From Pedobacter alluvionis (lineage in GTDB: Bacteria; Bacteroidota; Bacteroidia; Sphingobacteriales; Sphingobacteriaceae), in the NCBI RefSeq assembly GCF_003664035.1, contig NZ_RCCK01000010.1, forward strand, positions 868,001 to 932,000: a stretch of DNA of 64,000 bases, read 5' to 3'. The notes under the pieces are model-generated. The model made no database searches and was not told where the DNA came from. It was given only the letters and a program-made list of their open reading frames with translations. A program made the position numbers and the translations under genes. Below are positions 28,239 through 40,168 of the stretch, in pieces; positions within the stretch are counted from its first letter, which is position 1; each line of letters begins with the position of its first letter.

Positions 28239-28685
28239 ATGCTGTCCAAAAAAACAAAATATGCCATTAAAGCGCTTGTTGCGCTTGGTAAAAATTTAGA
28301 TAAACCACCAATGCAGATTTCAAAGATTGCAGAGGAGGAGCATATTCCGAAAAAATTCTTAGAACAAATTCTGCTCGATCTGCGTAATGCTGGCTTTTTA
28401 TACAGCAAAAAAGGTGCAGGCGGCGGTTATAGCCTAAATAAAAAACCTGAGGAGATTTTATTGGTACACGTGATGCGTGTAACTGATGGTCCTATTGCCA
28501 TGGTTCCATGCGCAAGTTTAAACTTTTACCACAAATGTGATGAATGTGTAGATGAGAAAACCTGTGGAATTAGAAGTGCCTTTATTGATGTACGGGATGC
28601 TACACTTAAGGTTTTAACCGAAACCAGCATCGCAGATGTAATCGGTCGTGAGGATAACCTGAAGATCGGTATCGTTAATTTATAG
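28239..28685 (+). CDS. Rrf2 family transcriptional regulator
   Basis: 148 residues. The winged HTH MLSKKTKYAIKALVALGKNLDKPPMQISKIAEEEHIPKKFLEQILLDLRNAGFLYSKKGAGGGYSL is classical Rrf2. Beyond it, CASLNFYHKCDECVDEKTCGIR gives four cysteines placed as in iron-sulfur-binding members (IscR, NsrR), so a [Fe-S] sensor is possible. Other Rrf2 proteins, such as CymR, control cysteine and sulfur assimilation. It lies 1.6 kb upstream of the sulfate-assimilation operon, making it a candidate regulator of it. Confidence 0.9.
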   Translation: MLSKKTKYAIKALVALGKNLDKPPMQISKIAEEEHIPKKFLEQILLDLRNAGFLYSKKGAGGGYSLNKKPEEILLVHVMRVTDGPIAMVPCASLNFYHKCDECVDEKTCGIRSAFIDVRDATLKVLTETSIADVIGREDNLKIGIVNL

Positions 28686-28972: not shown

Positions 28973-29341
28973 TTAACGAATGGGATTAATACACTTCAAT
29001 TTTTTAACTCGTTCAAAGTCGCTTAAATTGCGGGTATAGATTTCAAGGTTATGTACTAAAGCAGTAGCGGCAATAAGACTATCGCCAAGTTTAAGATTGT
29101 ACTTTTTCCGAATTTCAATAGCCTTATCAAATATGTTTTGATCAGGAAGAATAATTGGTACATATTCAAAAATATCATTAAAGTACTTTTCTTCTTCTTT
29201 CTTCAATGCATGATAACCGAGTACTTCAACGCGAGATATTTCTGATACTATACAGGATTCATCAATAATTAACTCCCTTAAGTATTCGTACTCATTTGAA
29301 TACGAATAAATAATTAAATTACTATCTAAAAGAAAAGCCAT
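28973..29341 (-). CDS. PIN-domain toxin, VapC-like
   Basis: 122 residues, typical PIN length. The four acidic residues of the nuclease site are visible: D6 in FLLDSNLIIY, E39 in SRVEVLGY, D87 in KLGDSLIAATAL and D108 in NLSDFE. VapC toxins are Mg-dependent RNases that often cut tRNA or rRNA. The gene lies 2 bp after the antitoxin gene, so they form one operon. Confidence 0.88.
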   Translation of the reverse strand: MAFLLDSNLIIYSYSNEYEYLRELIIDESCIVSEISRVEVLGYHALKKEEEKYFNDIFEYVPIILPDQNIFDKAIEIRKKYNLKLGDSLIAATALVHNLEIYTRNLSDFERVKKLKCINPIR

Positions 29342-29897: not shown

Positions 29898-30010
29898 TTC
29901 CGCGTTAGGGATTGTAAGGGTTCAGTACCGATTTTTCATCGGTACCGTAGCGAAGCGCAGCCCTGAAAAGCCCGACCCTTGCGCCAGCTTGGGGAACGCC
30001 CAAATCAGTT
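29898..30010 (-). repeat. Long structured repeat, copy A (GGGCGTTCCCC...CCCTAACGCGG)
   Basis: On the minus strand it reads AACTGATTTGGGCGTTCCCC, then GGGTCGGGCTTTTCAGGGCT, GCGCTTCGCTACGGTACCGAT, and ends ACTGAACCCTTACAATCCCT-AACGCGGAAT. Copy B at 44297-44468 in the other orientation shares both ends almost perfectly and differs in its loops. Similar elements recur in Bacteroidota genomes; no protein is encoded. Confidence 0.8.
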
Positions 30011-30063
30011 AACAATTTTCAATTCGCAGTTTTCAGTTACTCTTGTTTAAGAATTTAATTTAC

Positions 30064-30100
30064 AGATTTCTCCATTTCGCCACGCTCTACTCGAAATGAC
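30064..30100. repeat. Half copy of the GTCATCTCGAC repeat
   Basis: AGATTTCTCCATTTCGCCAC plus GCTCTACTCGAAATGAC, matching the right arm of the complete repeats. Confidence 0.7.
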
Positions 30101-30125
30101 GTTTCTTTTATGTAAATTTTTTTAT

Positions 30126-30163
30126 AATAAATTACTACTATTCCTATATACTTTATATATTTG
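30126..30163 (+). promoter_or_regulatory. Shared sulfur promoter block, copy 1 (sulfite reductase operon)
   Basis: A 38-bp block ending in the -7 box TATATTTG (30156-30163). It equals copy 2 at 40131-40168 in 35 of 38 positions. In place of a TTG at -33 it has TACTACTATTCCTATATAC (30133-30151), reminiscent of ATTCC-ATAG-type Rrf2/CymR operators. It is probably bound by a sulfur regulator; the Rrf2 protein at 28239 is the obvious candidate. Confidence 0.65.
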
Positions 30164-30167
30164 ATGT

Positions 30168-30236
30168 ATGAACTTCAATTTTATACCTAACAAGTTAATC
30201 GTTATGCAAATGATGTATTGTTGTAAAACCCAATAA
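30168..30236 (+). CDS. Leader peptide with tandem Cys codons (22 aa)
   Basis: A 22-codon ORF that starts MNFNFIPNKL and ends MQMMYCCKTQ, with TGT TGT near its 3' end. Its ATG is 5 bp after the last base of a perfect -7 box, the same spacing as at the TetR gene, so the mRNA should be leaderless and begin with this ORF. A terminator-like hairpin follows 36 bp after the stop, before the sulfite reductase ATG. The arrangement resembles ribosome-mediated attenuation, in which Cys-tRNA shortage stalls the ribosome and permits operon expression. The peptide itself is unlikely to have another role. This is inferred from sequence; an alternative is a chance ORF. Confidence 0.55.
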   Translation: MNFNFIPNKLIVMQMMYCCKTQ

Positions 30237-30271
30237 CAGGAGCCTACAGTAATTTTAAGTATAAAATATGG

Positions 30272-30302
30272 AATGCTTCTCGGTTACAGGGAAGCATTTT
30301 TT
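30272..30302 (+). terminator. Terminator-like hairpin in the sulfite reductase leader
   Basis: AATGCTTC (30272-30279) pairs with GAAGCATT (30291-30298), followed by a T-run to 30302. It lies about 20 bp before the ATG at 30323, inside the leader that carries the Cys-codon ORF. Its placement upstream of a gene instead of after one points to attenuation. Confidence 0.65.
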
Positions 30303-30322
30303 AAATAAAGCTAACAACATAT

Positions 30323-32413
30323 ATGCAAAGTTTCAGAACAGAACTCGAAAATCCGATTGTCGAGCAGGACATTATCGATTTAGAGAATAAGATTAAAGCT
30401 TTTAGAGATGGAACCATCCACGACGAAAAGTTTAGAAGCCTCCGTTTGGCCCGTGGTGTTTACGGACAAAGACAACCTGGTGTGCAAATGGTGCGTATTA
30501 AATTGCCTTTTGGGAAGGTGACTTTTAAACAGTTATTGCGCATTGCCGATATTGCGGATGAGTACGGAAGCGGCAATTTACACTTAACCACCCGTCAGGA
30601 TATCCAGATTCATTACGTGAGTTTAGATCGTACACCAGAACTCTGGGCCAAACTCGAACAAGATGATATTACGCTTCGCGAGGCTTGTGGAAATACGGTA
30701 CGTAACGTAACCGCTTCTCCAAATGCTGGGATAGATGCAGAAGAACCTTTTGATGTTTCGCCTTATGCGCAGGCGGTATTTGCTTACTTTTTGCGTAATC
30801 CGATCTGTCAGGAAATGGGCAGGAAAATTAAAATCTCCTTTTCATCCAGCGATAGAGACACTGCGTTTAGCTACATTCATGATTTAGGTTTTATTCCAAA
30901 AATTAACGAAAAAGGGGAACGTGGATTTAAGGTGTTATTTGCTGGTGGTTTAGGTGCACAACCTTTTCTTGCAAATGCGGTTCATGAATTTTTACCTGAA
31001 GATCAGTTAATTCCTTTTACCGAATCTGTTCTTCGTGTATTTGACCGTTATGGCGAACGTACCAACCGTAACAAAGCACGTTTAAAATACCTGGTTCAAA
31101 AACTAGGTTTAGGAGAAGTTTTACGTTTGGTTGCCGAAGAGCGTATTGCCAACAAAGTAAAAACCTTTAAAATAGACATTAATACAATACCTCAGCCAAC
31201 GTTACCTTTAGAACAAGAATATCCTGCGGTAGAAATATTAAATGAAGCCCATTATAAACATTGGTTAGCCACCAACGTAATTGAACAAAAACAGACCGGA
31301 TTTTATGGCGTGTATATTAAAGTTCAGGTGGGCGATATCAAAACCGATAAGGCAAGGGCTTTTGTTGATGCTATCAGGTTATATGTGGCTGATGAAATCA
31401 GGATTACCCAGAACCAGGGATTGCTGTTAAAGTTTGTACTCAAAGAAGCATTACCTTCATTATATGCTGCCTTAAATAAAATTGGTTTTACTACAGCTGG
31501 CTTTGATAGTTTAGCTGATATTACCACTTGCCCAGGAACCGATACCTGTAATCTAGGAATTTCCAATTCAATGACCTTGGCTGAAGTTTTGGAAGAAGTA
31601 ATCTATACCGATTTCCCTGAGTTTATCTACGAGAAAAGCATCAAGATCAAAATCAGTGGCTGTATGAACTCTTGCGGTCAGCATGGCTTGGCAGAGATTG
31701 GTTTCCACGGAAGTTCAGTAAAAGCTGAAGGGAAAGTGGTTCCGGCTGTGCAGGTAATGCTTGGTGGCGGTACTGTTGGTAATGGTGTTGGCCGTGTTGC
31801 AGAACGTGTAATTAAAGTGCCTTCTAAAAGAGCAACAAGTGTTTTACACTTCATTTTAAATGATTTTAAAGCCAATAACCTGGAGGATGAAAACTTTCAC
31901 CAATATTATGATAGAAAAGGTAAAGACCATTTTTATCAGTTGTTAAAACCTTTGGCCGATTTAACCAACCTTAAAACAGAAGAATTTGTAGACTGGGGAC
32001 ACGTAGAAGAGTTTGTAACTGCAATTGGTGTAGGCGAATGTGCTGGAGTGGTGATCGATTTAGTAGCTACTTTATTATTAGAGGCCGACGAAAAATTTGG
32101 CTGGGCAAAGCAAAACTTAGATAAAGGTGCTTATGCTGATGCCATTTACCATACTTATAGCACTTTTGTAAGCGCCGCAAAATCTCTACTGTTAGATAAA
32201 GGCGTAAACAGTAGTACGCAGGTATGTGTGATTCGCGAATTTGATAACCATTATGTAGAAACCGGAGAATTTAATTTACCGACCAATTTCTCTGACCTGG
32301 TTTTACAGATCAATAAAAACGAACCAACAGCTGAGTTTGCACAAAAATATTTTGAAGAAGCCAATCAATTTTTAAATCAGATTAAGGAAAAAAGAGCGGT
32401 ATTGGTGAAGTAA
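30323..32413 (+). CDS. Sulfite/nitrite reductase hemoprotein (assimilatory)
   Basis: 696 residues. Siroheme/[4Fe-4S] reductase: two tandem ferredoxin-like halves (QPGVQMVRIKLPFGKVTFKQ, GNLHLTTRQDIQIHYV) and the cluster cysteines in TCPGTDTCNLGIS and SGCMNSCGQHG. The siroheme signature NTVRNVTASPNAG is also present. A C-terminal extension of about 140 residues after the reductase core (ADEKFGWAKQNLDKGAYADAIYHTYSTFVSAAKSLL) looks like a HEPN-type helical domain, which is common in Bacteroidota homologues. The gene cluster (SUMT, CysG, CysH, CysDN) points to sulfite as substrate. First gene of the operon. Confidence 0.92.
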   Translation: MQSFRTELENPIVEQDIIDLENKIKAFRDGTIHDEKFRSLRLARGVYGQRQPGVQMVRIKLPFGKVTFKQLLRIADIADEYGSGNLHLTTRQDIQIHYVSLDRTPELWAKLEQDDITLREACGNTVRNVTASPNAGIDAEEPFDVSPYAQAVFAYFLRNPICQEMGRKIKISFSSSDRDTAFSYIHDLGFIPKINEKGERGFKVLFAGGLGAQPFLANAVHEFLPEDQLIPFTESVLRVFDRYGERTNRNKARLKYLVQKLGLGEVLRLVAEERIANKVKTFKIDINTIPQPTLPLEQEYPAVEILNEAHYKHWLATNVIEQKQTGFYGVYIKVQVGDIKTDKARAFVDAIRLYVADEIRITQNQGLLLKFVLKEALPSLYAALNKIGFTTAGFDSLADITTCPGTDTCNLGISNSMTLAEVLEEVIYTDFPEFIYEKSIKIKISGCMNSCGQHGLAEIGFHGSSVKAEGKVVPAVQVMLGGGTVGNGVGRVAERVIKVPSKRATSVLHFILNDFKANNLEDENFHQYYDRKGKDHFYQLLKPLADLTNLKTEEFVDWGHVEEFVTAIGVGECAGVVIDLVATLLLEADEKFGWAKQNLDKGAYADAIYHTYSTFVSAAKSLLLDKGVNSSTQVCVIREFDNHYVETGEFNLPTNFSDLVLQINKNEPTAEFAQKYFEEANQFLNQIKEKRAVLVK

Positions 32414-32518: not shown

Positions 32519-33295
32519 ATGAGCGATCAGAAATTAAATATAGAATCAAGAATAACCCTTTTGGGCGCTGGTCCTGGCGATCCTGATTTGTTAACGTTGA
32601 AAGGTGTAAAAGCATTGCAAACTGCAGATGTGGTATTGTATGATGCCTTAACCAACGAAGCTTTATTGGAGCATGCTCCGGCAGAAGCCATTAAAGTTTA
32701 TGTAGGAAAACGTTCAGGTGAGCATTCTTATCCTCAGGATACCATCAATAAATTAATGATCGATTATGCCTTAAACTATGGTCACGTAGTGCGTTTAAAA
32801 GGTGGCGATCCATTTGTTTTTGGCAGAGGTTACGAAGAACTTGATTATGCGGCATCATATAGCATTCCGGTAAGTGTAATTCCGGGTATTTCGAGTTCTA
32901 TCGGTGTACCGGGTTTGCAGCAGATTCCGGTTACACACCGAGGCATGAGCGAAAGCTTTTGGGTAATCACTGGTACTACCACTTCTGGAGAGGTTTCTGC
33001 CGATATTTATCAGGCAGCAAAGTCAAAAGCTACGGTATTGGTACTGATGGGACTTAAAAAATTACCTAAAATTGTAGAGATTTTTAAAGCGGCTGGCAAA
33101 CATCATTTACCAACTGCAGTGGTGCAGAACGGATCGGCAAAAGATGAAAAATTAGTAGTGGGCGTGGTAGAAACCATAGAAAGTTTAGTGCAGCAAGAAA
33201 ATATTAAAGCTCCGGCTTTATTAATTTTTGGAGAAGTTGTATCATTACATCCATCATTTAAGAAATTAATTAAACAATATGCAAGTATTGCCTAA
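32519..33295 (+). CDS. cobA: Uroporphyrinogen-III C-methyltransferase (SUMT)
   Basis: 258 residues, standard SUMT length. Motifs: LLGAGPGDPDLLTLKGVKAL, GHVVRLKGGDPFVFGRGYEE, VIPGISSSIGVPGLQQIPVTHRG and LMGLKKLPKIVEI. It uses S-adenosylmethionine to make precorrin-2 from uroporphyrinogen III, the first step towards siroheme for the sulfite reductase. It overlaps the following CysG-TauE fusion by 17 bp. The 105-bp spacer to the reductase gene contains AGAATGATTGAGTTAAAGAA and its near-complement TTCACTCATTC, a spacer repeat without known function. Confidence 0.92.
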   Translation: MSDQKLNIESRITLLGAGPGDPDLLTLKGVKALQTADVVLYDALTNEALLEHAPAEAIKVYVGKRSGEHSYPQDTINKLMIDYALNYGHVVRLKGGDPFVFGRGYEELDYAASYSIPVSVIPGISSSIGVPGLQQIPVTHRGMSESFWVITGTTTSGEVSADIYQAAKSKATVLVLMGLKKLPKIVEIFKAAGKHHLPTAVVQNGSAKDEKLVVGVVETIESLVQQENIKAPALLIFGEVVSLHPSFKKLIKQYASIA

Positions 33296-34790
33296 CCAAC
33301 CTGATAATGCAGCGTCTTTTTCTGAGGAAGAAAAAGGTAACCAGCTCTTTCCGGTTTTTGTAAAGCTGAACAAGCTGCGTACATTATTAATTGGTGCAGG
33401 AAATATTGGGTTAGAGAAATTAACCGCGATTGTAAATAACAGCCATAGTGCTACCATTACTATTGTGGCAGAGCTTGTATCTCCAGAAATTTATACGCTG
33501 ATAGCAAATTATCCGCTCATAAAAATTAAGCAGAAAAGTTTTGACATAGACGACTTGAACGATATTGATATCGTTTTTGCGGCAACCAATAACAATATTT
33601 TAAATGAAGAGATCAGAAAGGTTACGCACGAGCGTGGTTTGTTGATCAATGTGGCAGATAAGCCAGAACTCTGCGATTTCTATCTGGGATCAATCGTTCA
33701 AAAAGGCGATTTGAAGATTGCCATTTCTACAAATGGAAAATCGCCAACCATAGCAAAACGTTTAAAGCAGATTTTAAATGAGGGTTTACCAGCAGAACTG
33801 GACGAAACCTTACAGAATATGAGTGCCTTGCGTCAAACCTTAAACGGCGATTTTTCAGCAAAGGTTAAAAAACTGAATAAGGTTACCAAAAGTTTAATTA
33901 ACCCTAGAAAAAGTTTTGCCGAGCGGAACATTAAATGGTTAATCTGGGTGGCATCAGTTTTACTGATTGGAGCAATTGGTTTTTCTTTATGGAATACCGA
34001 GCCAGAATTTCAGACTTTCCTGATCAATATTGATCCTTTATTCTATTGGTTTTTAGGCGCCGGATTTTTATTTGCATTAATTGATGGCGCAATCGGCATG
34101 TCGTACGGGGTTACTACGGCATCGTTCTCGTTGGCGATGGGTTTACCTCCTGCATCAGCAAGTATGGCGATTCACATTTCTGAGGTAATGAGCAATGGAA
34201 TTGCCGGCTGGATGCACTACCGGATGGGCAATGTCAACTGGAAATTATTCAAAATTTTAATTATTCCAGCGATAATTGGAGCCGTTTTAGGCGCCTACAT
34301 CTTATCGTCACTTGAGCATTACAGTGCTTATGTTAAGCCTATTGTAGCGGTTTATACCTTGTTTTTAGGTGGAGTTATTTTAATGAAGGCCTTTAATATC
34401 AAGCGTAAAAAAGCCGATCAAAAAATTAAAAAAATTGGTTTATTGGGCTTTGTTGGTGGTTTTATCGATGCTGCCTTCGGCGGCGGCTGGGGTTCGATCG
34501 TATTATCGAGCTTAATTGCAGGTGGCCGACACCCCTTATTTTCTTTGGGTACAGTAAAAATCAGCCGCTTTTTTATTGCCACTTTAAGTTCGCTTACATT
34601 TTTCACCATGTTAGGTGGCAAACACTGGGAAGCCGTTTTAGGCTTAATTATCGGTAGTGCAATCGCATCGCCGATTGCTGCAAAAGTATCGAACAAAATT
34701 TCGGCAAAAACCATTATGGTTGCTGTGGGGATTATTGTAATGATTGTGAGCTTGCGCAGTGTGATTATGTTTATTTTAAAATTAATTTAG
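33279..34790 (+). CDS. Precorrin-2 dehydrogenase/ferrochelatase fused to TauE/SafE exporter
   Basis: 503 residues. Residues about 20-200 match the CysG/SirC N-terminal domain: FPVFVKLNKLRTLLIGAGNIGLEKL (NAD motif), FAATNNNILNEEI, ADKPELCDFYLGSIVQKGDLKIAISTNGKSP. This half oxidises precorrin-2 and inserts iron to give siroheme. From about residue 220 the protein is a TSUP-family transporter (sulfite exporter TauE/SafE) with eight or so membrane segments, GAGFLFALIDGAIGMSYGV and GFVGGFIDAAFGGGWGSIVLSSL being its repeated signature. The transporter half may export sulfite or import sulfate. The start overlaps the SUMT stop by 17 bp. Confidence 0.9.
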   Translation: MQVLPNQPDNAASFSEEEKGNQLFPVFVKLNKLRTLLIGAGNIGLEKLTAIVNNSHSATITIVAELVSPEIYTLIANYPLIKIKQKSFDIDDLNDIDIVFAATNNNILNEEIRKVTHERGLLINVADKPELCDFYLGSIVQKGDLKIAISTNGKSPTIAKRLKQILNEGLPAELDETLQNMSALRQTLNGDFSAKVKKLNKVTKSLINPRKSFAERNIKWLIWVASVLLIGAIGFSLWNTEPEFQTFLINIDPLFYWFLGAGFLFALIDGAIGMSYGVTTASFSLAMGLPPASASMAIHISEVMSNGIAGWMHYRMGNVNWKLFKILIIPAIIGAVLGAYILSSLEHYSAYVKPIVAVYTLFLGGVILMKAFNIKRKKADQKIKKIGLLGFVGGFIDAAFGGGWGSIVLSSLIAGGRHPLFSLGTVKISRFFIATLSSLTFFTMLGGKHWEAVLGLIIGSAIASPIAAKVSNKISAKTIMVAVGIIVMIVSLRSVIMFILKLI

Positions 34791-34792
34791 TG

Positions 34793-35494
34793 ATGGAGAA
34801 CCTAGAGGAGATAAAAGTAGCACTGGCAGGTTTAAGTACAGTAGATAAACTGAAATTTTTGGCAGATCAATATGCCGGCCGTATTATTTTTTCGACCAGT
34901 TTTGGTTGGGAAGACCAGGCGATTACCCATTTAATTTTTGCCAATAATATTCCAATCAAGGTTTTTACTTTAGAAACCGGACGCTTGTTTCCTGAAACCT
35001 ATTACGTTTGGAACCGTACCTTAGAAATTTACAACAAACCCATTCATGCCTATTATCCGCTGAACGAATTATTACAGGATATGGTCAATACCAAAGGCCC
35101 GAGCAGCTTTTATGAGTCGGTAGAAAATAGAAAAGAATGCTGTTACATCCGTAAAATCGAACCTTTAAAAAGAGCATTAAAAGGAAACGAAATCTGGGTA
35201 ACAGGCATCAGGGCCGATCAGAGTGCCAACCGTGAGGATATGCACGATTTAGAATGGGATGAAGGGAACCAGTTGATTAAATTTCACCCTATTTTCGATT
35301 GGACTTTAGATGATGTGAAAGCATACATTAAAGAAAACAACATTGTATACAATACGCTGCATGATAAGGGTTTTCCGAGTATAGGCTGCGCGCCATGTAC
35401 AAGGGCAGTACAGCCAGGCGAAGATTTTAGGGCCGGAAGATGGTGGTGGGAAGATCAGAGCAAAAAAGAATGCGGTTTACACGCAGCTTCTTGA
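34793..35494 (+). CDS. cysH: Phosphoadenylyl-/adenylyl-sulfate reductase
   Basis: 233 residues from the ATG at 34793; a GTG three bases earlier is also possible, and the stop of the fusion gene ends at 34790. PAPS reductase motifs: FSTSFGWEDQAITHL (P-loop-like), TLETGRLFPETY, RKECCYIRKIEPLKRAL, GIRADQSANRE. Two cysteine pairs, ECCYIRK and GCAPCTRA, and a final ECGLH match the [4Fe-4S] adenylylsulfate reductase type, which reduces APS directly without PAPS. There is indeed no APS kinase in the operon. The product is sulfite, used by the reductase at 30323. Confidence 0.92.
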   Translation: MENLEEIKVALAGLSTVDKLKFLADQYAGRIIFSTSFGWEDQAITHLIFANNIPIKVFTLETGRLFPETYYVWNRTLEIYNKPIHAYYPLNELLQDMVNTKGPSSFYESVENRKECCYIRKIEPLKRALKGNEIWVTGIRADQSANREDMHDLEWDEGNQLIKFHPIFDWTLDDVKAYIKENNIVYNTLHDKGFPSIGCAPCTRAVQPGEDFRAGRWWWEDQSKKECGLHAAS

Positions 35495-35576
35495 GGGAAG
35501 AAGTAAGATGGGAGATGGAAAATGGGGTTCAAACCTCCCAGCAATTTAACAACAACAACAAAGACAACATTTGATA

Positions 35577-36482
35577 ATGAGTACATATAATTTTGATTAT
35601 TTAGACGAACTGGAGGCCGAGGCCATTCACATTTTGCGTGAAGTAGCAGGTCAGTTTGAAAAACCGGCCCTCTTATTTTCGGGTGGAAAGGATTCAATTA
35701 CTTTAGTTCGTTTGGCAGAAAAAGCTTTTCGTCCGGGAAAATTTCCTTTTCCTTTAGTGCATATTGATACAGGCCATAATTTTGAAGAAACCATCACTTA
35801 CCGCGATCAGATGGTAGAACGAATTGGCGAAAGATTAATCATCGGTTCTGTGCAAGAATCAATAGATCAGGGTAAAGTTGTAGAGCAGACCGGTAAAAAT
35901 GCCAGTAGAAATGCTTTACAGACCGTTACCTTACTCGATACCATTGCAAAATACCAGTTTGATGCCTGTATTGGTGGCGCGCGTAGAGATGAAGAAAAAG
36001 CAAGGGCTAAAGAACGTATTTTCTCTGTTCGTGATGAATTTGGTCAATGGGATCCAAAACGCCAGCGTCCTGAACTTTGGAACATCTATAACGGTAAAAT
36101 CCACAAAGGAGAAAATATCCGTGTATTTCCGATCAGTAACTGGACAGAATTAGATGTTTGGAATTATATCCGCAGAGAGAAAATAGACCTTCCAAGCATT
36201 TATTTCTCGCACGAGCGGGATTGCATTACCCGTAATGGACAATTGATGGCTGCCTCGCCATTTTTAAACATGGATAGTGATGATATTGTAGAACGTAAAC
36301 AGGTGCGTTTCCGTACAGTGGGCGATATGTCCTGCACTGCTGCGGTAGAATCGGATGCTACTTTGATTGATGACATTATTTCTGAAATCAGCGCTTCTAA
36401 AATTTCGGAGCGTGGTGCCCGTATGGATGATAAAGTTTCTGAAGCCGCAATGGAAGACAGGAAAAAAGGGGGGTACTTTTAA
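35577..36482 (+). CDS. cysD: Sulfate adenylyltransferase subunit 2
   Basis: 301 residues from the ATG at 35577 (MSTYNFDYLDELEAEAIHIL); a TTG two codons upstream is not preferred. The PP-loop motif LLFSGGKDSI (about residues 32-41), HIDTGHNFEETI, GGARRDEEKARAKER and RERDCIT-like SHERDCITRNGQL are characteristic of CysD. With CysN it forms APS from sulfate and ATP, driven by GTP hydrolysis. It is followed by CysN after a 144-bp spacer. Confidence 0.93.
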   Translation: MSTYNFDYLDELEAEAIHILREVAGQFEKPALLFSGGKDSITLVRLAEKAFRPGKFPFPLVHIDTGHNFEETITYRDQMVERIGERLIIGSVQESIDQGKVVEQTGKNASRNALQTVTLLDTIAKYQFDACIGGARRDEEKARAKERIFSVRDEFGQWDPKRQRPELWNIYNGKIHKGENIRVFPISNWTELDVWNYIRREKIDLPSIYFSHERDCITRNGQLMAASPFLNMDSDDIVERKQVRFRTVGDMSCTAAVESDATLIDDIISEISASKISERGARMDDKVSEAAMEDRKKGGYF

Positions 36483-36587
36483 ATTGAGTATCGAGTAGCT
36501 AGTAGCGAGTATCAAGATTGGATGCAAACTAAAAAACTTAACCTTTAAATAAACTAAGTATGAGTATGGAATTGATAGACTGCAGTA

Positions 36588-36622
36588 TGTCTTGATACTT
36601 GATACTAATATCTTAATACTAT
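36588..36622 (+). repeat. GATACTT-rich spacer before cysN
   Basis: CTTGATACTTGATACTAATA followed by TCTTAATACTATAAGC. The same kind of spacer lies directly before the ABC ATPase gene (53521-53553) and before the second permease gene (56875-56908). Confidence 0.6.
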
Positions 36623-36626
36623 AAGC

Positions 36627-37877
36627 ATGAACATATTAAAATTTTTTACAGCAGGCAGTGTAGATGATGGTAAAAGTACCTTAATCGGCCGTTTGTTATA
36701 CGATACAGATTCTATTTTGGCCGATCAGTTAGAAGCTTTACAGAGCTCGAACCGCAAAAATGACGATGGATCAATAGATTTAGCCATTCTTACTGATGGT
36801 TTAAGAGCAGAACGCGAACAGGGCATCACCATTGATGTAGCTTATAAATACTTTCAAACAGAGAAGCGTAAATTCATCATAGCCGATACCCCAGGACATA
36901 TTCAGTACACCAGAAATATGGTTACAGGTGCTTCTACCGCTAACCTGGCGATTATCTTAATCGATGCACGTAACGGTGTAGTGGAGCAAACCATCCGTCA
37001 TTCTTATATCGTTTCCCTATTGGGAATTAAACATGTGGTGGTTTGCATTAATAAAATGGATATGGTTGGCTATAACGAAACGGTTTATAGTGCAATTATA
37101 GAAAAGTACAAAGTTTTGGCTCAGCAATTAAAGCTGTCCGATGTAACCTATATTCCGGTAAGTGCATTAAAAGGAGATAACATTGTACAAAATTCTGGTA
37201 ACATGGATTGGTATGAAGGAGAAAGTCTATTACATTTCTTAGAGAAAGTTGATACCGACAACCTGGACAAATCGCAATTGGCCCGTATGTCGGTGCAGTG
37301 GGTGGTGCGTCCGCAAACAGAAGAATTGCACGATTACCGAGGTTATGCCGGTAGGGTATTAAGCGGCACCTTTAATTTAAATGATAAGGTTACGGTATTG
37401 CCAGGTGGTGCAAGTTCTACTGTAGAGAAAATCGATTTTTTTGATCAAACGCTTGATGCCGCACACGCCGGCCAATCGGTTGTCATTCACTTAAAAGATG
37501 ACGTAGACATTAGCCGTGGCGATACGATTGTAAATGCATCGGCTTTGCCACAGGAAACAAAACTGATTGAGGCTGATCTCTGCTGGATGGATACCCGTAC
37601 CTTGGATACCTCGATAATGTACAACATTCAGCATAATAGCAAAATTACTAAATGTAAAATCAGCGAAATTCTGCATAAGGTAGATATTAACTCACTAGAG
37701 AAACATGCTGCAGAAGAATTTAAACTAAATGATATTGGCCGCGTGATTGTTAAAACCGCTGATGCTTTGGCATTTGACCTATACGACGATAACCGCGCAA
37801 ATGGTTCTGCCATTTTGGTTGATACCCGTACTAACTTAACTGTTGGTGCTTTAATGTTCAGGGCGGCAGTTGAGTAG
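36627..37877 (+). CDS. cysN: Sulfate adenylyltransferase subunit 1 (GTPase)
   Basis: 416 residues, a stand-alone CysN without the CysC kinase domain. GTPase motifs: AGSVDDGKSTLIGRLLYDTDS, switch region REQGITIDVAYKYF, DTPGHIQYTRNMVTGAS, NKMD and SALKGDN. Then two beta-barrel domains of EF-Tu type. Partner of CysD; last gene of the operon. Confidence 0.93.
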   Translation: MNILKFFTAGSVDDGKSTLIGRLLYDTDSILADQLEALQSSNRKNDDGSIDLAILTDGLRAEREQGITIDVAYKYFQTEKRKFIIADTPGHIQYTRNMVTGASTANLAIILIDARNGVVEQTIRHSYIVSLLGIKHVVVCINKMDMVGYNETVYSAIIEKYKVLAQQLKLSDVTYIPVSALKGDNIVQNSGNMDWYEGESLLHFLEKVDTDNLDKSQLARMSVQWVVRPQTEELHDYRGYAGRVLSGTFNLNDKVTVLPGGASSTVEKIDFFDQTLDAAHAGQSVVIHLKDDVDISRGDTIVNASALPQETKLIEADLCWMDTRTLDTSIMYNIQHNSKITKCKISEILHKVDINSLEKHAAEEFKLNDIGRVIVKTADALAFDLYDDNRANGSAILVDTRTNLTVGALMFRAAVE

Positions 37878-40130: not shown

Positions 40131-40168
40131 AATAAATTACTACAATTCCCATAGACTTTATATATTTG
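40131..40168 (+). promoter_or_regulatory. Shared sulfur promoter block, copy 2 (second SUMT gene)
   Basis: A 38-bp block with TACTACAATTCCCATAGAC (40138-40156) and the -7 box TATATTTG (40161-40168). It differs from copy 1 at 30126-30163 in three positions only, all in the central element. The ATG lies 40 bp after the -7 box. Confidence 0.65.

Follow-up and report, generated by a model that had tools for sequence, protein, structure and literature searches.

A putative cysteine-codon attenuator preceding the sulfite reductase operon of Pedobacter alluvionis

Leader and operon at the locus

The window analysed here, a 64,000-nt stretch of the Pedobacter alluvionis genome (contig NZ_RCCK01000010.1, positions 868,001 to 932,000), carries an operon headed by a sulfite reductase-type gene and preceded by a short leader. 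This leader consists of a promoter box, a 22-codon open reading frame (ORF) with tandem Cys codons close to its stop, and an intrinsic terminator. An initial annotation, made from the sequence of the window, had proposed it as a candidate Cys attenuator, a reading which comparison with relatives supports, the ORF, its stop-proximal Cys codons and the terminator being conserved. The features of the leader and operon are as follows.

30156-30163, plus strand: -7 promoter box TATATTTG, matching the TAnnTTTG consensus
30168, plus strand: predicted transcription start on the A of the leader AUG (leaderless), at box end +5, the spacing of Flavobacterium psychrophilum
30168-30236, plus strand: leader peptide ORF MNFNFIPNKLIVMQMMYCCKTQ of 22 codons, TAA stop at 30234-30236
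30219-30224, plus strand: tandem Cys codons TGT TGT (putative sensor), in-frame CysCys being common among homologous leaders
30238-30243, plus strand: candidate antiterminator strand AGGAGC, pairing with 30275-30280 in a fold of 30237-30290
30270-30302, plus strand: intrinsic terminator, a 12-bp hairpin (30270-30300) with T6 (30297-30302), from folding and shuffles
30323-32413, plus strand: first gene, a sulfite reductase-type NIR_SIR protein of 696 aa, named from domains and operon context
32519-37877, plus strand: rest of the operon, namely uroporphyrinogen-III methyltransferase, siroheme synthase/TauE fusion, APS/PAPS reductase, CysD and CysN

In the product of the first gene, the nitrite/sulfite reductase domains each occur twice; the gene is named from these domains and from the operon context, the NCBIfam models all scoring under their cut-offs. 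The operon is one of sulfur assimilation, its gene content from the reductase to CysN indicating that it makes sulfide from sulfate.

The promoter box and the leader ATG are 4 nt apart, and the frame ends in MQMMYCCKTQ as first described, encoded by ATG CAA ATG ATG TAT TGT TGT AAA ACC CAA TAA. The hairpin and its T-run are likewise present: the T-run ends 20 nt before the first gene, as had been stated, whereas the hairpin begins 33 nt past the leader stop and not 36 nt. The terminator folds at -14.6 kcal/mol (z -5.4), a value equalled by 0/200 shuffles. Thus, three of the elements by which a leader-peptide attenuator is recognised are present: a short leader ORF, codons matching the operon product and an intrinsic terminator before the gene.

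Conservation and codon content of the leader

Relatives were drawn from three sources: 41 genomes (that of the window and its relatives), 29 of them with the reductase gene; the 80 best named loci out of at least 588; and a phylum-wide set of 395 genomes, of which 53 matched, 11 of these (including the window's own genome) belonging to family f1. Family f1, the 80 named loci and one f6 locus (L039) were pooled into 116 loci from Pedobacter, Mucilaginibacter, Nubsella, Olivibacter and metagenome-assembled genomes, which reduce to 107 distinct regions on account of nine duplicate pairs. Four loci stand outside this set: L041 (f10), L042 (f12), L043 (f13) and L044, the second reductase copy of genome G002; neither L042 nor L044 has a Cys leader.

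A leader ORF with Cys codons is present 5' of the reductase in 77 of the 107 distinct regions. A script looking for a Cys ORF near a -7 box followed by a terminator found 69 of these, and inspection by eye of the remaining 38 regions added eight (L035, L040, L051, L057, L089, L109, L112 and L114); one further leader (L107) is borderline. When 18 leaders of Pedobacter group A are aligned, the ORF shows no indel other than a single whole-codon one, whereas the following spacer is free to vary, by single bases too. Between groups, it is the ORF, the stop-proximal Cys codons and the terminator that are conserved, and little else of the peptide is common save Cys (and Met).

In the 77 leaders, Cys accounts for 11.8% of codons (TGT 125, TGC 72) and, with the start excluded, for 12.4% as against 0.9% in 11 proteins of the window, a 14-fold difference; Met, also with the start excluded, is enriched 5.9-fold over the same proteins. 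CysCys occurs in frame in 59/77 leaders, compared with 1/77 and 2/77 in the +1 and +2 frames. These figures bear directly on the possibility that the ORF arose by chance, with an Rrf2 operator alone controlling the operon and the hairpin being an unrelated terminator. A promoter and an operator-like sequence do persist 5' of the reductase in many relatives that have no leader (as judged by eye), as this explanation would expect; yet the in-frame bias of CysCys, and the fact that no region was seen with a Cys ORF but without a terminator (the doubtful L035 apart), speak against it. For the group as a whole a chance origin is contradicted by conservation, and it is the most improbable of the explanations weighed here.

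The position of the ORF relative to the promoter box further suggests how it may be expressed. In F. psychrophilum the TAnnTTTG box occupies -12 to -5 (PMC9723704), a spacing that places +1 on the A of the leader AUG and would hence make the leader peptide leaderless. Leaderless mRNAs are reported to form ~5.5% of the mapped mRNAs of F. psychrophilum (PMC9723704), 5' untranslated regions of <10 nt account for ~3.7% in B. thetaiotaomicron (PMC7366714), and Shine-Dalgarno sequences are described as absent in Bacteroidota (PMC9723704). In 51/77 leaders, the box is followed after exactly 4 nt by an in-frame ATG that leads into the Cys codons (52/77 if L065 is added, where the script had taken a second box). 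If the gap is counted from the nearest box to whichever start is used, it is 4 nt in 55/77, including two GTG starts, the ATA of L051 and the inner start of L057; it is 7-14 nt in 20/77, mostly of the Mucilaginibacter type, and 1 nt in one leader, in which the script chose a TTG before the ATG, while one leader is without a box. Transcription is thus expected to start at the leader ORF rather than 3' of it, with probable leaderless initiation, and in many Pedobacter the internal ATG beside the Cys codons is a possible alternative start.

Individual sequences with altered starts are instructive in this respect. In L051 (P. suwonensis) the first start codon has become ATA, with an in-frame ATG at codon 6 and MMCCCKTQ intact; in L020 (P. 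terrae) the start is likewise ATA, the Cys run and stop are altered and the T-run is shorter. In L057 (Pedobacter sp. MC2016-05) a stop closes the outer frame and an inner in-frame ATG preserves the Cys codons. The site of this outer-frame stop, ~136 nt 5' of the reductase start, also gives rise to a second -7-like box TAAATTTG, which precedes the inner ATG by 4 nt and may mark a shifted leaderless start.

Similar leaders occur beyond the pooled set. In family f10, 3/9 genomes have the gene (L041, L224 and L225) and in each of the three, two Cys leaders (CCCC or CCCCC) follow one another; L041 (= L189) has a scored terminator after each leader, and L224 and L225 show similar hairpins, so that these serial poly-Cys leaders look like a doubled attenuator. 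The single f13 genome (1/1, L043) has the leader ACCCMCCCC with a terminator. In f6, a leader ORF ending in MCCCCCMCMC and preceded by a -7-like box stands upstream of a homoserine dehydrogenase gene (L192:7308-7415), where a terminator was not found. One Cys-x-Cys ORF, in L179, was discounted, its hairpin being weak and far from the gene. A Cys-run pattern, TGYTGYTGYTGYTGY, had matches in 365 of 395 class genomes; it is far too unspecific and was therefore not used.

A covariance model of the Pedobacter leaders matched 33 of 60 genomes of the genus, 28 of them at E <=8.5e-12, sequences used in building the model matching by construction. Those 12 of the 28 strong matches whose gene position is known all lie directly 5' of the reductase. 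Among the best seven of 12 weaker matches, three precede the reductase (L249, L250 and L253) and four precede a branched-chain aminotransferase; these four (L248, L251, L252 and L254) have a leader rich in Ile, Val and Leu (translated by eye) together with a terminator. The window's own genome has such a leader too, ...NVALLPVILLNLLLLNILW..., with a terminator (L255:1240-1505; G000:C2, before 304107), and the gene behind it is ilvE (TIGR01122, above cut-off). A leader rich in Ile, Val and Leu before ilvE and one rich in Cys before the reductase mean that the codons match the operon in each case, as attenuation predicts.

Alternative pairing and the proposed mechanism

The initial annotation had identified no competing antiterminator. 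In the window taken by itself the pairing is weak; comparison, however, supports for the group a conserved alternative pairing between a segment at or just past the leader stop and the 5' half of the terminator. In Pedobacter A the element appears as a purine run right after the stop (AGGAGC, AGAGGGTAT) facing ATGCTTCT. The consensus terminator stem of this group has a nearly invariant 5' arm and a 3' arm that drifts via G-U pairs, the pattern to be expected of a 5' arm shared between two partners.

The pairing was modelled for the 69 script-found leaders among the 107 regions, with 12 nt assumed to be covered by the ribosome beyond its A-site codon and with pairing of the terminator 5' arm to upstream RNA scored before the 3' arm is made. 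Mean pairing with the ribosome stalled on the last Cys codon, with the ribosome at the stop and in length-matched shuffles was 0.73, 0.24 and 0.48 in Pedobacter A (32 leaders), 0.59, 0.20 and 0.47 in Pedobacter B (14) and 0.62, 0.06 and 0.40 in the Mucilaginibacter type (23), part of the contrast between stall and stop following trivially from the smaller amount of free RNA that a ribosome at the stop leaves. Pairing of the 5' arm with upstream RNA exceeded the shuffle mean in 68/69 leaders and was individually within the top 5% (<=5%) in 20/69.

In the Mucilaginibacter type, the last codons of the leader (CGG/TGG CTG/CTA) pair with CAGCC/TAGCC in the terminator. This helix was aligned in 14 leaders, comprising 13/23 of the type, picked by eye for similar layout, and L089; 89.8% of cells are paired, as against 21-42% in slid versions, and the paired cells, the double-change cells (8) and the covariation score were each matched by 0/500 shuffles. 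The same helix bears on the idea that the product of the ORF is itself functional as a small peptide rich in Cys, e.g. a metal- or redox-binding one. The conservation of Cys and the frequent length of 22 codons (29/77) would agree with a peptide product; nevertheless, little of the peptide beyond Cys (and Met) is conserved between groups, the last Mucilaginibacter codons track RNA pairing (CGG/TGG CTG with CAGCCG/A), and L093 retains the pairing element though its ORF stops before it. A functional peptide is therefore very improbable.

The arrangement is best explained as a ribosome-mediated transcription attenuator controlled by cysteinyl-tRNA through Cys (perhaps Cys and Met) codons, to which we assign a probability of about 0.88. 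The promoter box, the ORF, its Cys codons, the terminator, their conservation and the covariation of the alternative pairing in Mucilaginibacter are directly visible in the sequences; the start site, leaderless initiation, stalling and the direction of the response are deduced. RNA polymerase would start at or beside the leader AUG, so that a ribosome would load on the 5' end of the transcript and translate the 22 codons. With ample Cys-tRNA, it would reach the stop and cover the segment at or just past it; the terminator hairpin would then form and transcription would stop short of the reductase gene. Under a shortage of Cys-tRNA, the ribosome would instead stall at the Cys tandem, typically 3-4 codons before the stop (8 in many Mucilaginibacter), leaving the segment free to pair with the 5' half of the terminator, and the operon would be transcribed.

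As a refinement of this mechanism, the leader may sense both sulfur amino acids, with Met codons also slowing the ribosome and Met-tRNA being read alongside Cys-tRNA. In the 77 leaders, Met occupies 92/319 (28.8%) of the non-Cys positions beside the Cys cluster as against 45/1073 (4.2%) elsewhere, a contrast inflated because the sequences are related; Cys and Met are direct neighbours in 25/77, and Met also interrupts the distant Cys runs ACCCMCCCC of L043 and MCCCCCMCMC of L192. On the other hand, Met codons just 5' of the Cys cluster may be internal starts, and some leaders are without an adjoining Met, 55/77 having one in the three codons before the cluster. Dual sensing is accordingly a tentative proposal, somewhat below even odds.

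The hairpin could also act on translation, hiding the reductase start region until a stalled ribosome opens it, with no transcription stop involved. Such a role would suit a hairpin that ends just 15-34 nt before the gene (69 leaders), and cysteine genes of M. smegmatis are described as being under translation attenuation (PMC13236596). Nonetheless, the hairpin leads straight into a T-run, as intrinsic terminators do, both in the window and in the 69 leaders (which were selected for a terminator), and by eye in seven of the other eight (L035 being doubtful); moreover, it excludes the reductase start codon. Translation attenuation is hence unlikely, and termination of transcription remains the preferred account.

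Several observations weigh against attenuation by Cys codons, or against its generality. The leader unit is lacking from 26/107 regions; three more (L020, L086 and L098) keep a leader remnant or terminator with no proper Cys ORF, and L249 (G762, outside the 107 regions) has promoter and terminator but no Cys ORF. Relatives without the ORF or its Cys codons, the case that the initial annotation had named as speaking against its reading, thus do occur but are a minority. The label of presence or absence changes at least 8 times on a FastTree tree of 111 reductases (three degenerate rows excluded), which fits repeated loss, and we read the absence of the leader in this minority as loss. None of the counts are independent, because the sequences are related. 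The script took the Cys-richest ORF near the box and demanded a terminator, thus favouring both, and the frame control corrects for this only in part. Furthermore, the +1 frame is itself rather Cys-rich (6.9% Cys codons, compared with 1.3% in the +2 frame), and 5/77 leaders have a single Cys codon only.

The pairing evidence has similar limits. In the window, antiterminator pairing is no better than in shuffles (fold z -0.05; ribosome model p 0.23) and remains nearly as accessible once the ribosome has reached the stop (0.57 vs 0.52). In Mucilaginibacter, pairs changed on both sides and further pair types are unexceptional, 148/500 and 37/500 shuffles respectively being as high, and the helix was spotted by eye on the same sequences, which favours it over its slid versions. 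Outside f1, f10 and f13, the 400-nt upstream regions of 39 loci yielded no short ORF containing CysCys or Cys-x-Cys, these being the loci of the phylum search outside f1, with the matching genomes G239, G103 and G197 not included; in many of the 39, the gene follows other operon genes (by eye). Similarly, in 20 upstream stretches of 2.2-9.2 kb (10 from f20; 2 each from f15, f18 and f25; 1 each from f6, f10, f12 and f13), a Cys leader with a terminator was found only in f10 and f13, the rest of these genomes not being searched.

A probable second layer of control and relation to known systems

Apart from the proposed attenuator, a transcriptional regulator probably acts on the operon. The features concerned are listed below.

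28239-28685, plus strand: Rrf2-family regulator, nearest specific model CymR (87 bits vs cut-off 195)
30134-30155, plus strand: candidate operator/upstream promoter region ACTACTATTCCTATATACTTTA, common to the promoter at 40139-40168

The candidate operator is probably read by the neighbouring Rrf2 regulator. The 29-base pattern of operator plus promoter has only two matches (<=3 mismatches) in the 6.04 Mb genome, in the 30134-30163 region and at 40140. The second copy (40139-40168) precedes a second uroporphyrinogen methyltransferase gene and has no leader peptide. Among 75 named loci with enough flank, 47 carry a sequence motif of Rrf2 type upstream and in the same orientation. A repressor-plus-attenuator arrangement is proposed, with the Rrf2 regulator as the likely second control layer on the operon.

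Leader attenuators of the trp, his and ilv operons combine regulatory codons, a choice between terminator and antiterminator, and ribosome-polymerase coupling. Leaderless polycysteine short ORFs have reportedly been described in mycobacteria by Canestrari et al. in 2020. The present leader differs from the trp, his and ilv attenuators in its Cys codons, its apparently leaderless start and its occurrence in a phylum without Shine-Dalgarno sequences (PMC9723704). With the mycobacterial ORFs it shares a short frame, stop-proximal Cys codons and cysteine-supply genes, and possibly a leaderless start, as predicted here from promoter spacing. Mycobacterial cys leaders were predicted with no conserved terminator hairpin according to one account (PMC1262725) and are described as translation attenuation in another (PMC13236596); unlike them, the Pedobacter unit belongs to another phylum and has an intrinsic terminator with a putative competing pairing. 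The likeness between such unrelated leaders suggests convergent evolution.

Another parallel is the uORFC-8-2 motif, described as lying exclusively 5' of cysS in Rhodobacterales and as having a conserved two-stem structure; it has two tandem Cys codons in its upstream ORF, an intrinsic terminator and presumed ribosome-mediated transcription attenuation (PMC8632094). From its description, it is set apart by phylum and by gene (cysS encoding the Cys-tRNA synthetase), and that description makes no mention of a leaderless start (PMC8632094). A scan of 29900-30500 against Rfam gave 0 matches, the presence of uORFC-8-2 in Rfam not being checked. Within the same phylum, leader-peptide attenuators are reported before amino-acid biosynthesis operons of F. 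psychrophilum, the main-text passages on them naming no cysteine or sulfur case (PMC9723704). The initial annotation had known of no described Bacteroidota case; likewise, no cysteine or sulfur attenuator of this phylum was found in the open-access literature, although an earlier prediction is possible. Thus, Cys-codon attenuators are already known or predicted in other phyla, and the Pedobacter leader apparently joins a mycobacteria-like, seemingly leaderless Cys sensor to an intrinsic terminator.

If this holds true, cysteine would be a further amino acid that ribosomes sense during translation in Bacteroidota, a large phylum that does not use Shine-Dalgarno initiation. Ribosome-polymerase coupling in the phylum would also become directly testable, in a natural setting where translation from a leaderless start acts on an intrinsic terminator. 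A wider and more speculative picture, which we consider rather more likely to fail in some part than to hold, is that of a Bacteroidota sulfur-amino-acid attenuator that is leaderless, reads Cys and Met codons together, has at least three antiterminator designs built on a common Cys-codon sensor, is doubled in series in one family and lies beneath a CymR-like Rrf2 repressor, such that metabolite control would come first and tRNA charging second.

Some minor features of the locus may be recorded. Residues 584-650 of the reductase (30323-32413) form a C-terminal extension with a marginal match to the HEPN domain (22.9 bits vs cut-off 22). Between the Rrf2 gene and the operon, a PIN-domain gene (VapC-like, weak) lies on the minus strand at 28973-29341. 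A short dispersed repeat (30064-30101; core ~CTCCATTTCGCCACGCTCTACTCGAAATGACG) is situated just 5' of the promoter, and some thirty similar places occur in the genome.

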